Position numbers and translations under genes: made by a program. The notes below the pieces were generated by a model that made no database searches, had not been told where the DNA came from, and was given only the letters and a program-made list of their open reading frames with translations. Shown piece after piece: positions 20,340 to 24,754 of a stretch of 33,492 nt of DNA (the first letter of the stretch is position 1; each line of letters starts with the position of its first letter). Origin of the DNA: Candidatus Thalassarchaeaceae archaeon (GTDB taxonomy: Archaea; Thermoplasmatota; Poseidoniia; Poseidoniales; Thalassarchaeaceae); NCBI GenBank assembly GCA_029940695.1, contig JAPYUP010000019.1, positions 1 through 33,492 on the forward strand, given 5' to 3'.

Positions 20340-20539
20340 GGCCCACCCGCCGCCGGAACTCCTCTTTGGTCGTTTTGGATGTGAAAGCCCATGTTCGGAC
20401 TAGGCCCAGCCGCCCAAGATGCTAACTGCGCCAGTGTCCAGTGTCCACCCCGGCTCCTTCCAGTCTAGGAGCCCTCTGTCAGGGATTGGGGCCTGTTCAT
20501 GTATGCACGTTGACGTCCGAGTACGTTGTCGGAGGAATT
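20340..20539. other. Intergenic leader region before citrate synthase
   Basis: About 200 nt without a recognised gene. It holds a tandem heptamer (CAGTGTC twice, at about 20432-20445), a 7-bp hairpin (20452-20473), two ACGTTG direct repeats near 20508 and 20523, and a strong Shine-Dalgarno at 20531-20536 that serves the short ORF at 20540. I see no clear TATA box. Confidence 0.5.
20452..20473 (+). promoter_or_regulatory. Hairpin in the citrate synthase leader
   Basis: GGCTCCT (20452-20458) and AGGAGCC (20467-20473) form a perfect 7-bp stem with an 8-nt loop. It lies about 105 nt upstream of the citrate synthase ATG and 67 nt before the short leader ORF. No T-run follows. If transcription starts upstream it would be in the 5' UTR and could have a regulatory role. 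Confidence 0.35.
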
Positions 20540-20581
20540 ATGATGGACACCTCATTCCGTGGGCTCTGGGACGTAGTATGA
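20540..20581 (+). CDS. Possible 13-codon leader ORF overlapping the citrate synthase start
   Basis: ATG-ATG at 20540/20543 opens a frame encoding MMDTSFRGLWDVV and stopping at TGA 20579-20581. That stop overlaps the citrate synthase start as ATGA. GGAGGA (20531-20536) is one of the best Shine-Dalgarno matches in the window and fits these ATGs (6 nt to the second), not the main start. This layout suggests translational coupling or a leader-peptide control. Alternatively the SD is fortuitous, or ribosomes load here for the downstream gene. Peptide expression is not shown. Confidence 0.35.
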   Translation: MMDTSFRGLWDVV

Positions 20582-21747
20582 CAGAGGATGACTCGCTTTT
20601 CACCATCTCGGAGAACCATCTTGACACCGGTCTGCGCGGCATTCCCGTCGGGACCTGCCTCACATCGCATGTTGACCCGATCGAAGGCGTCCACTACGTC
20701 GGCTACCCAGTCGGCGACCTAGCCGACCTTGAGGAGGAGGACGTGATTTACCTGCTGATGCACAAGACGCTTCCCAGCGCCAAGGAGTCTGCCGAATTCA
20801 GGACGGAACTAGCACATCGAGGTGAGGAAATCCCGACCGGCGCCCTCAGGGTGCTGGAGACGCTGACCGCAGGAAGCGGCCATCCGATGGACTGGCTGGC
20901 TATCGGCATCATGGCATTGGGGGCTGCAGAGACCACCGGCGATGCCAAGGTCGATTCGATGAACCTCATAGCGAGGATGCCGGAGCTGATGGCCAGAATA
21001 TTCCTGCTGAGGGGGGGCAATCCAGAGAACCTCAGGCCACGGGAGACAAAACTCGGCCTGGTCGAGAACTTCGTGCACATGTTGGGCATTAATGGCGATG
21101 GGGCCGAGCGCATGAACCGCGTGCTCCGGTTCTTCTTCATTCTCCACATGGACCACGGCGGCGGCAACCTCTCGACCTTCTCTGGCAAGGCCGTGGCATC
21201 TGGTAAGGCTTCGGTCTACGCCTCACTGGCCAGCGCTATGAACGCCCTGTCGGGGCCACTGCATGGTAGGGCCAACCAAGCCTGCTTGGAGTTCGTGCAG
21301 AGGATTGGGACGTCTGACCATGACGAGATTGAGGCCTTCGTACGCTCAGAGCTCGCCGCACGCCGCCCAATTTACGGATTCGGGCACGGCGTTCTCAGGG
21401 CAGAAGACCCTCGTGCAAGGCTCCTAATTGAACTCGGCTCGGAAATCTGCCCCGATGACGAGAACTTCCAGACCGTAACCGCTCTGCGCGAGGTGGTACC
21501 ACCAATTCTCCAGGAGATTCCCAAGATCAGCAATCCATACCCTAATGTGGATCTGGCCAGCGGCAGCTTGCTGCATTCGGTCGGCTTCCGCAAGCCTGAC
21601 TACTACACGACCTTCTTCGGGTGGGCCCGTGTCGCCGGAATCTGCGCACAAATCCTCGATGAGAGGAATGCTCGCGACGGTCGCGGTGTGCCAATCTATC
21701 GGCCGAAGTACATCGCTCGCGACCAACCACGCCGCCGGCTCGAGTGA
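20578..21747 (+). CDS. gltA: Citrate synthase, mitochondrial-like sequence type
   Basis: Condenses acetyl-CoA and oxaloacetate to citrate (389 aa), entry to the TCA cycle. The catalytic triad is present: His in SGPLHGRANQ, His in YGFGHGVLRAEDPRA and Asp in NPYPNVDLASGSLLHS. Details such as GPLHG-x-ANQ, GHGVLR-x-x-DPR and PDYYTTFFGWARVAGICAQ resemble mitochondrial and eukaryote-like bacterial citrate synthases more than the common archaeal form. 2-methylcitrate synthase is the usual alternative, but the pattern argues for citrate synthase. ATG 20578 is chosen because it opens a conserved N-terminus and overlaps the leader ORF stop; the frame extends upstream to 20419 without conservation. Its stop abuts the stop of the convergent gene with zero gap. 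Confidence 0.88.
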   Translation: MTEDDSLFTISENHLDTGLRGIPVGTCLTSHVDPIEGVHYVGYPVGDLADLEEEDVIYLLMHKTLPSAKESAEFRTELAHRGEEIPTGALRVLETLTAGSGHPMDWLAIGIMALGAAETTGDAKVDSMNLIARMPELMARIFLLRGGNPENLRPRETKLGLVENFVHMLGINGDGAERMNRVLRFFFILHMDHGGGNLSTFSGKAVASGKASVYASLASAMNALSGPLHGRANQACLEFVQRIGTSDHDEIEAFVRSELAARRPIYGFGHGVLRAEDPRARLLIELGSEICPDDENFQTVTALREVVPPILQEIPKISNPYPNVDLASGSLLHSVGFRKPDYYTTFFGWARVAGICAQILDERNARDGRGVPIYRPKYIARDQPRRRLE

Positions 21748-22857
21748 TTACGCGCTGTGAGCCTTTCCTGCGCCCCTGTGGCCGACGATTCGTGGGCTTC
21801 CCCACAGCAGGCCCCCCTCTGCCTCTGCAGCCCATTTGTCCTCTGAGCCAGACCAGAACATCCTCCGTCCTTGCTCCGTGACTAACTCCTTCCTGCGCTT
21901 CTGGCCTATCTCGGGCCAAGTCGGTAGCGAGGACGAGGCCTCTCCAATCAGGTCGGCGAGATCACCGTCAGCAGCCGAGTTCAGACGTGTCCGCCACTCC
22001 TCGTCGAGTGGCTGGCTGGCTGGCCGGGGCCAGCGCACGCTGCCATCAGGCAAAGAGACGATGTCCGGGTTCATGTGGTCTGAGACTAGGGAGAACCCCG
22101 CCTCAATCAGTGTACTCTCGAGCTCCAGGGGGGATGGCCAAACGAATGCCCCCATGCCCGCTCGAGCCTTGTTGAGTCGCACAAGCCCCCTTCCACGAAG
22201 ACCCACTGGGAGCCCGGGATTAATCCAGCGAGTCCATCCATTTAGGAATTCGAGGGCTAGCCCCATGACTGGCATACTATTCTTTCGCAGGTATCTGACT
22301 AGTCCGGGTACTGAGATGCAGGCGAAGTGGGGTGCCCCAACGGCTCGCTTTACATTCCAGTCCCCCCAAGGTCTGAGATGCGGCATGAGGCGAGTGATTG
22401 GCATCCCAAACTCGGCGGCTTTCGCCACTGGTCCGATTCTAGGGGAGAAGCTGTACACGAGCGCCGACCGGTCGGGCAAGTCGAATGACTCCAGCTTGTG
22501 TTCAAGCAGCCCCATCATCGATCTTAGTTGCTCATCGACCTCGATACCGGCAATCGGGTGCGGCATCTTGAACTCGATATTGGCGGTCTTCCCACCTGCC
22601 TGCCATGCTTCAGTGTAACGACTGTTGGATAGAAGTTCATCGAACGTCGCTACTCCCCGAGAGCGCACCTCGTCGGTTCCGAGCATCTCGATACAACGCT
22701 CAGTTTTGGGGGCGGTACCGGGAAGCAACTCGTCATGGTAAATTACGAACTCGCCGTCGTTGCTCAGTTTGAGGTCAAACTCCACCCCGTCGGAGAACTC
22801 CATCCCATGCTGCAGCGCGGCTATCGAGTTCTCTTTCGGTTGCTCCCAGGTTGCCAT
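21748..22857 (-). CDS. Glycerophosphodiester phosphodiesterase-like protein, apparently circularly permuted
   Basis: GDPD-family TIM barrel (369 aa) with its parts in unusual order. Ordinary GDPDs begin with HRG-x, then PENT, then E-x-D and HD. Here the protein begins MATWEQPKENSIAALQHGME, continues GVEFDLKLSNDGEFVIYHDE (metal-binding Glu, Asp and His), and only its last 15 residues hold the first-strand motif, PRIVGHRGAGKAHSA. NIEFKMPHP and SLVSDHMNP match later barrel strands. A ~90-residue polar linker precedes the relocated strand. The family hydrolyses glycerophosphodiesters to glycerol-3-phosphate and an alcohol; in archaea a related role on glycerol-1-phosphate lipids is possible. ATG 22857 is preferred; a frame to 22938 adds residues without an HRG motif. 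All expected active-site residues are present, so activity is plausible. Confidence 0.78.
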   Translation of the reverse strand: MATWEQPKENSIAALQHGMEFSDGVEFDLKLSNDGEFVIYHDELLPGTAPKTERCIEMLGTDEVRSRGVATFDELLSNSRYTEAWQAGGKTANIEFKMPHPIAGIEVDEQLRSMMGLLEHKLESFDLPDRSALVYSFSPRIGPVAKAAEFGMPITRLMPHLRPWGDWNVKRAVGAPHFACISVPGLVRYLRKNSMPVMGLALEFLNGWTRWINPGLPVGLRGRGLVRLNKARAGMGAFVWPSPLELESTLIEAGFSLVSDHMNPDIVSLPDGSVRWPRPASQPLDEEWRTRLNSAADGDLADLIGEASSSLPTWPEIGQKRRKELVTEQGRRMFWSGSEDKWAAEAEGGLLWGSPRIVGHRGAGKAHSA

Positions 22858-22963: not shown

Positions 22964-24754
22964 ATGTCAGACATCATTGAACTAGACCGCGCATCAGATC
23001 CACAAGCAGTCAGAGGATATGCATTCTATGACTGGGGAAAGTCAGCCTTTGAGACGAGTGTCACAACCGCCATACTGCCACCGTGGTTTGCCTACATTTT
23101 TCTGAAGGCCAACGGACTGGAGACTACCATTCTCGGCAGTGACGTCACCGCGGACGCGGCTTGGGCCTTTGCGGTGACCGGCGGAGCGCTCCTCGTTGCC
23201 ATACTCGCGCCTTCCTTCGGCGTCATCGCCGACCGCCGCGCCATCAAGATGTGGTGGTTGAGGATTCTGACCTACCTAGGCGCTGGGGCGACCTTCCTGC
23301 TTGCCTTCGCCCCTATGTTCGAAGTGAGCCGGCAGTGGGTATGGCTGATCATCATGTTTCTGATGGCGAACGTGGGTCTGAATGGTGCTGGTGTGTTCTA
23401 CAACGCGCTGCTCCCTCACATGGGGACAGACGACGAGATGGATGGCATCTCGAACAAGGCATTCGCATTCGGTTACCTCGGCGGCGGGATTCTGCTTCTG
23501 ATTCACCTCGGCATGGTGATGGGAATAACCGGAGACTGGGTTATTCCATTCGTCATGGCCTCTTCCGGTGTTTGGTGGTTGGGCTTTGCGATGCTCACCT
23601 TCGCATGGGTTCCAGAGCCACCCATAGAGAACGAGATGGAGAGCTTGGGCATTAGAGAGTCCGCGAGTCTCGCAATCAAAGAACTTAGGAAGACTTTCGG
23701 ACAAGTAGACCGTTTCAGGACCCTGTTCATTTACATGCTCGCGTACTTCTTCTTCATCGACGGCATCAACAGCGTGACCGCCCTAGCGGGAATCTATGGG
23801 GTCACCGTCCTAGGCCTAACTACGACCGCCTTGATCCTGACTATTCTGGTAATCCAGTTCGTCGCAGCACCATGCGCAATAGCGTTCACGAAGCTGGCTG
23901 AGAAGACCTCAACCCACTACGCTTTGACCTTCTCGCTCGTCATGTGGGTAGTGGTAGTGCTGGGCGCCATGTCATTCGCTCCTCTGACACTCGATGAGCA
24001 TGAGGAGTACGACATCCAGTATACGTGGGATGACGAAACATCTGCCTACGAGGCCTCGGTCGGCGCTAGTGCCTACGAACACGGTCTTTCAGAGGATGAT
24101 GAGGAACAGTCCTGGGCATCCGAGTACGCCGGTATTCTGCCAATATCGGTCAACGAGGACTATGATGAACGAGTAATCTACGAGTTCGACGACCCCGAGG
24201 ACGATGAGTCTTCCACTACCGTCACCGACACATCGAGAATATCTGCTCTCGCCCAGACATTCGATGAGAACAGCCGCTTCAGCATGAGCGTACAGGGCGG
24301 AGCCTTGGGTGGAACCACTGCATTGGGGGAGAATCACCCGACCAGCCTAGGAGATGGCCCCCTCGATGCAATCCCCGACGCTGTACGCAGCGCTGTGTGG
24401 GAGCCTTTGGGAATGGGCGTTTTCTGGCAGTTCTTGCTGTTGGGCTGCATGGCCGGAGCTCTACTGGGTGGCTCACAAGGCCTTTCTCGCAGCATATTCG
24501 GCCAGATGGTCCCCGAGACGCGAAGTGCCGAATTCTTCGGCTTCTTCGGCTTCTTCGGCAAGGTGGCCGCATTGATGGGACCTCTGCTCTATGGGGTAAT
24601 GACGATAATGTACGACAGTAGGGTGGGGATAGCGAGCATCTGCGTGCTTATCATCATAGGAACACTCATGATGAGACTGGTCGATGTCGAGGACGGCCGT
24701 CGTGCCGCGATGGAAGAGGACGCAAGAAACCGCGGGCTGACGATGGAATCCTGA
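22964..24754 (+). CDS. UMF1/Atg22-family MFS transporter with an acidic loop insert
   Basis: Membrane transporter of the major facilitator superfamily (596 aa, long for the family). Family signatures are YAFYDWGKSAFETSVTTAIL at residues 19-38, and GGSQGLSRSIFGQMVPETRS then AEFFGFFGFFGK (about 512-543). About 11-12 helices are visible. Between the helix ending about residue 348 and the one starting near 484 there are ~130 residues (24017-24404) rich in Asp, Glu and Ser, with no hydrophobic segment; I expect this loop outside the membrane. Yeast Atg22 exports amino acids from the vacuole, but prokaryotic UMF1 substrates are largely unknown. ATG 22964 gives the conserved N-terminus. The stop is 2 nt from that of the convergent HMG-CoA reductase gene. 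Confidence 0.85.
   Translation: MSDIIELDRASDPQAVRGYAFYDWGKSAFETSVTTAILPPWFAYIFLKANGLETTILGSDVTADAAWAFAVTGGALLVAILAPSFGVIADRRAIKMWWLRILTYLGAGATFLLAFAPMFEVSRQWVWLIIMFLMANVGLNGAGVFYNALLPHMGTDDEMDGISNKAFAFGYLGGGILLLIHLGMVMGITGDWVIPFVMASSGVWWLGFAMLTFAWVPEPPIENEMESLGIRESASLAIKELRKTFGQVDRFRTLFIYMLAYFFFIDGINSVTALAGIYGVTVLGLTTTALILTILVIQFVAAPCAIAFTKLAEKTSTHYALTFSLVMWVVVVLGAMSFAPLTLDEHEEYDIQYTWDDETSAYEASVGASAYEHGLSEDDEEQSWASEYAGILPISVNEDYDERVIYEFDDPEDDESSTTVTDTSRISALAQTFDENSRFSMSVQGGALGGTTALGENHPTSLGDGPLDAIPDAVRSAVWEPLGMGVFWQFLLLGCMAGALLGGSQGLSRSIFGQMVPETRSAEFFGFFGFFGKVAALMGPLLYGVMTIMYDSRVGIASICVLIIIGTLMMRLVDVEDGRRAAMEEDARNRGLTMES

Follow-up and report, generated by a model that had tools for sequence, protein, structure and literature searches.

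In the window, the whole stretch of 33,492 nucleotides that was analysed, the minus strand carries at positions 21,748 to 22,857 a coding sequence for a predicted glycerophosphodiester phosphodiesterase (GDPD) of 369 residues plus a stop codon. The start was placed at the ATG at 22,857, the point at which the matches of its relatives also begin. Its convergent neighbour is a citrate synthase gene (20,419 to 21,747, plus strand), which is treated here as a syntenic marker outside the proposed mechanism, and its divergent neighbour is a gene for an ATG22-like MFS transporter (22,964 to 24,754, plus strand). The citrate synthase gene stands tail to tail with the GDPD gene in 16 of 16 loci, and a similar ATG22-like gene stands head to head with it in 12 of the 16; this transporter may be a functional partner of the enzyme.

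GDPDs are found in all domains of life, and the order of their motifs is regarded as a signature. The GDPD family PF03009 is the only Pfam family matched by the protein. The match pairs residues 7-121 with profile positions 9-130 (E 3.3e-9) and scores 37.7 bits, above the cut-off of 23.6; profile positions 1-8 have no counterpart at the N terminus of the protein. The same family matches all 30 members of A1, our 30-row alignment of permuted GDPDs, at E up to 0.01, and no second PF03009 match was found at E up to 1 in the protein's own genome, which is 94% complete.

All of the motifs are read from the minus strand. The first barrel element of the chain is PKENS (residues 7-11; 22,825-22,839), which corresponds to PENT and opens helix 1. 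It is followed by GVEFD (residues 24-28; 22,774-22,788), which holds the E-x-D pair of strand 2, and by EFVIYHD (residues 36-42; 22,732-22,752), which holds the HD motif, with YHD at residues 40-42. Next come EFK (residues 95-97, within IEFK at 94-97; 22,567-22,575), the equivalent of EIK, and SF (residues 136-137; 22,447-22,452), the conserved GDPD strand. VWP (residues 239-241; 22,135-22,143) corresponds to WTVN, and SD (residues 259-260; 22,078-22,083) corresponds to the TD that follows the last ordinary strand. After the last ordinary strand comes a linker of about 87 residues (265-351; 21,805-22,065), and then the relocated first strand, WGSPRIVGHRGAGK (residues 352-365; 21,763-21,804), which carries H360 and R361; the final 11 residues of the chain, 359-369, read GHRGAGKAHSA. 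The linker has conserved motifs and no Pfam match at E up to 0.01, and it is shorter in four of the aligned relatives (L036, L037, L039 and L054). Compared with the GDPD family (PF03009; 2pz0, 2otd and 1vd6), the catalytic motifs are held in common, but the HRG strand is C-terminal rather than N-terminal, about 35 extra residues stand between the SF strand and W240, and the linker has been added before the relocated strand.

Residues N10, E26, D28, H41, E95, K97, W240, D260, W352, R356, H360, R361, G362 and G364 are invariant in A1, and so is F137. The sequence-only reading had described a protein that starts just before a PENT equivalent, carries GVEFD and YHD, and ends in GHRGAGKAHSA, with every active-site element retained in a new order; translation confirms each of these motifs, and the invariance of N10, E26, D28, H41, E95, K97, W240, D260, H360, R361 and G362 shows that their presence is not fortuitous. 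Among the 30 rows, two codons are used for H360, six for R361 and four for G362, and a stop codon follows every row. This synonymous variation points to translation of the tail and to selection on it.

With hhalign, A1 was aligned to 17 ordinary GDPDs of the phylum over residues 7-261, which fell on positions 16-222 of 232 in one alignment of 198 columns (probability 98.9, E 1.8e-17), with gaps between about 166 and 228. In this alignment EFVIYHD, IEFK, SF and VWP meet their ordinary partners, W240 falls on the W of WTVN, and D260 is offset by one residue from the D of TD. A second ordinary set, of 28 sequences and 219 columns, gave a first match of residues 7-159 on columns 16-144 (E 2.5e-20) and a separate match of the tail, residues 354-363 on columns 3-12, which form the ordinary first strand (E 8e-4). 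The probability of the tail match is only 24 because the alignment is just ten columns long. A weak third match in this set places residues 196-261 on columns 135-211 (E 0.36, probability 0.2), with D260 on the D of TD. When the ordinary profile was doubled in tandem, no single hhalign alignment crossed the joint between the copies, and the tail was again matched separately (E 0.002, probability 13). Taken together, the block and tail matches show that the ordinary columns run in circular order, from 16-222 and then through about 3-12, with strong support for the first block and modest support for the ten-residue second. A WTVN strand near residues 196-204 was also considered, from a 6.7-bit second domain and one MAFFT run that placed it at about 200; it was dropped in favour of W240, because hhalign and a broad-family MAFFT alignment both place the W at 240. 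The same broad-family alignment places the D at 349, not 260.

When the tail was moved to the front of the protein, 29 of 30 members had a higher best-domain score against an HMM of the 28 ordinary GDPDs, the mean rising from 34.3 to 38.1 bits, while a shuffled tail in the same place gave a mean of 34.8 and a maximum of 35.3 bits in 30 repeats. The gain is small, not exceeding about 1 bit in 7 of the 30, and cuts anywhere from about residue 160 to the tail give a similar gain, as they should if all that counts is that tail and head are joined. Searched with phmmer against solved structures, the protein found GDPDs, mostly matched from the PENT region onward. For 2otd, a second piece aligned query residues 352-366 with chain residues 4-18, PRIVGHRGAGK on PRIVAHRGGGK, at 3.3 bits, which is far below significance.

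The order of motifs is not peculiar to this genome. We took a census of loci up to L172, keeping distinct frames of at least 150 residues that match A1 at E up to 1e-30, and obtained 83 relatives, among which L109 and a piece of L013, the latter with an in-frame stop, are C-terminal fragments. HRG lies within the last 60 residues in 80 of the 83, and the three frames that have none (L095, L098 and L099) are cut by contig ends. The EN motif is present in 81. A search for the same order in related marine archaea, which the sequence-only reading had suggested, found HRG more than 200 residues after EN in 78 of these 81, in both families seen of the order Candidatus Poseidoniales; that reading had also pointed to close homologs with an N-terminal HRG as evidence against a permutation, and H[RK][GL] occurs in the 40 residues preceding EN in none of the 81. 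Likewise, the 52 loci fetched first (a set in which L032-L035 repeat other loci and from which L013 is omitted) have their start at the ENS/ENT region or just ahead of it and finish shortly after HRG. Four Poseidoniales-like loci came from a scan that finds close relatives only, and they belong to metagenome-assembled genomes named Candidatus Thalassarchaeum betae or Euryarchaeota archaeon; Thalassarchaeum is placed within Candidatus Poseidoniales, Thermoplasmatota (NCBI taxonomy), and we assume that the window belongs to this order too. The circular order of the profile columns and the lack of close homologs with an N-terminal HRG among the relatives examined support the permutation that had been proposed from the motifs.

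In the order sample, the 369-residue protein is matched at E up to 1e-5 in 268 of 292 genomes, and the A1 profile, run over 292 genomes of the class, has a match in at least 258. Among the matches listed, the strong ones, from both families of the order, extend over almost all of the model and take in the tail, and six weak ones (E 2.9e-8 to 8.8e-6) fall in a third family. The matches in G233 and G152 are tail pieces at contig ends, and the tail in G039 is also interrupted by the end of its contig. One genome outside the census of 83, G005 (G005:C3, L280), has a frame that stops about 36 codons early and adjoins the citrate synthase stop; within the 3 kb inspected there is no GHRG in any frame and no N. 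The tail may be dispensable there, or it may have been lost through deletion or assembly error.

Ordinary GDPDs of the same phylum provide the contrast. PF03009 was run over 243 genomes of the phylum. Of its 56 matches outside the order, 55 begin at profile position 1 (hand count), including all of those in five sister-family genomes, and the remaining one (G391) covers positions 65-240 in a frame of 204 residues. The permuted members of the order, in contrast, start at about profile positions 6-11, except for G039, which starts at 2 and has no HRG before EN. GDPDs of the sister family, the third of the same class (L100, L102-L105, L107 and L153-L156), belong to the same Pfam family and are taxonomically near the permuted form, but their frames of 230-247 residues have HRG at the N terminus instead of the C terminus. 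A plasmid sequence search with the 369-residue protein returned no match at E up to 1e-3, and since it missed even ordinary GDPDs it says little on permuted forms. In viral contigs no permuted form was found.

Other GDPD-like proteins also occur in Poseidoniales. Some genomes encode a second protein in frames of 193-236 residues (L145-L152 and L158-L160), with GHRLG, an ENT-like motif, EFD, HD and E-I/V-K in the ordinary order. This protein stops after roughly half a barrel, and only its first part is matched by the ordinary-GDPD HMM. Genus g8 has an extra ordinary GDPD, whose frames (L139 and L157) are 335 and 309 residues long and have a hydrophobic stretch at the N terminus. G028 carries an ordinary GDPD of this g8 type and has no match to the permuted form.

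Two structure models were built with AlphaFold. With five rows, the mean pLDDT was 31.8. The second model used 19 rows, 14 of them taken from viral contigs and limited to the N-terminal halves of ordinary GDPDs, and reached a mean pLDDT of 60.5, with confidence in the main only at residues 10-156 or so and with residues 160-187, 194-283 and 326-369 below 50. In this model, the PENT helix is followed by strands at 24-31 (the GVEFD strand, within the confident part), 37-39, 91-96, 132-136 and 154-156, and there is no strand ahead of them. GDPDs lead its Foldseek matches, with 1vd6 at the top (E 3.2e-6) among 44 matches at E up to 0.001. The model fits a barrel that has no strand 1 at its start, with the proviso that the added rows are themselves pieces of GDPDs; because these rows are N-terminal halves only, it says little about the location of the tail.

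We consider it highly probable that this protein is a naturally circularly permuted GDPD, a reading in which we include the insertion of the tail, the predicted activity and a single origin. It builds on direct observations, namely the motif order, the homology of the large block, the short tail match, catalytic residues that do not vary across 30 rows, the conservation across the order and the single clade described below. The cut would lie in the loop between barrel strand 1, which carries HRG, and helix 1, which carries PENT. The chain would accordingly run from the PENT helix through the later elements in their ordinary order to the TD strand, with a linker of about 90 residues leading on to the HRG strand. 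The C-terminal segment is predicted to take the place of strand 1, flanked by strands 2 and 8, closing the barrel beside strand 8, and H360 and R361 would there meet E26, D28, H41, E95 and K97 in a metal-dependent active site.

The same residues could also be brought together between chains. In such a domain swap, the C-terminal HRG of one subunit would enter the barrel of another, and the active site would be shared. The linker of about 87 residues would be long enough for an exchange between subunits, and insertion in cis and in trans have identical sequence evidence; we nonetheless think subunit exchange quite unlikely. It is highly improbable, in our judgement, that the C-terminal HRG is instead a conserved tail of its own, such as a peptide for binding or regulation, on an N-terminally truncated GDPD with another function. 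Both structure models leave the tail unplaced, its hhalign match is short with a probability of 24, and the frame in G005 lacks it. However, the tail does match the ordinary strand 1 in hhalign and resembles the start of 2otd, albeit at 3.3 bits, and H360, R361, G362 and G364 are invariant alongside the other catalytic residues. An assembly or gene-calling artefact, in which the real gene had an N-terminal HRG that was lost or rearranged, is hardly credible, for although four of the relatives, and possibly others, are from metagenome-assembled genomes, the order is kept across both families of Poseidoniales (78 of the 81 relatives with EN, the other three being cut by contig ends), citrate synthase adjoins the gene in 16 of 16 loci, and HRG is absent upstream in frame.

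The naturally permuted GDPD that we favour appears to have a single origin. A quick tree of the half from PENT to SF, with 30 permuted, 31 ordinary, 10 sister-family and 11 short proteins, places the permuted set on one side of a branch with an SH-aLRT of 97. The short GDPD-like proteins likewise fall on one side of a branch (SH-aLRT 98). The simplest account is a single permutation event that preceded the divergence of the two families. The permutation would have arisen once, in the ancestor of Poseidoniales, most simply by a tandem duplication followed by the loss of the outer ends, a route that rests on general knowledge of permutations.

Permuted TIM barrels are already known. According to excerpts of PMC2213659, transaldolase B is related to class I aldolase by a natural circular permutation of the barrel, in which two alpha/beta units are shifted between two different enzymes. 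In the permuted GDPD, on the other hand, only one strand would have been displaced, inside a single enzyme family, and the break would separate two parts of the family's signature. A search of open-licence full texts yielded no apparent description of a circularly permuted GDPD, or of a GDPD of this kind in Poseidoniales or Marine Group II, and the permuted order thus appears to be undescribed in that literature.

By eye, the N terminus has neither a signal nor an anchor, which suggests a cytosolic enzyme. There it would convert glycerophosphodiesters to sn-glycerol-3-phosphate (sn-G3P) and an alcohol, and we infer that it recovers sn-G3P from glycerophosphodiesters that are imported or turned over. 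In its own genome (G000, 94% complete), no match was found to PF13685, which we take to be the family holding G1P dehydrogenase, and none to the FGGY kinases of PF00370, and G3P dehydrogenase (PF07479) and an acyltransferase (PF01553) are present. This gene set agrees with published accounts of Marine Group II, excerpts of which describe the group as lacking G1PDH and as able to make G3P or carrying PlsC (PMC6962369, PMC7852524). A further reading, which we think unlikely, is that an order lacking G1P dehydrogenase has fixed, once, a GDPD whose active site is completed only once a dozen C-terminal residues thread in, so that insertion, in cis or between subunits, would switch the release of glycerol-3-phosphate.

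If the permutation is real, the GDPD barrel tolerates a cut within its own signature, one that leaves HRG at one end of the chain and PENT at the other. The Pfam GDPD profile covers the permuted form only partly. The protein would also be a natural test of barrel folding, in which the strand with two catalytic residues would leave the ribosome last. Moreover, the host has G3P dehydrogenase and an acyltransferase, with no detectable member of the G1P dehydrogenase family, and an sn-G3P-releasing enzyme may thus bear on the question of its membrane lipids.
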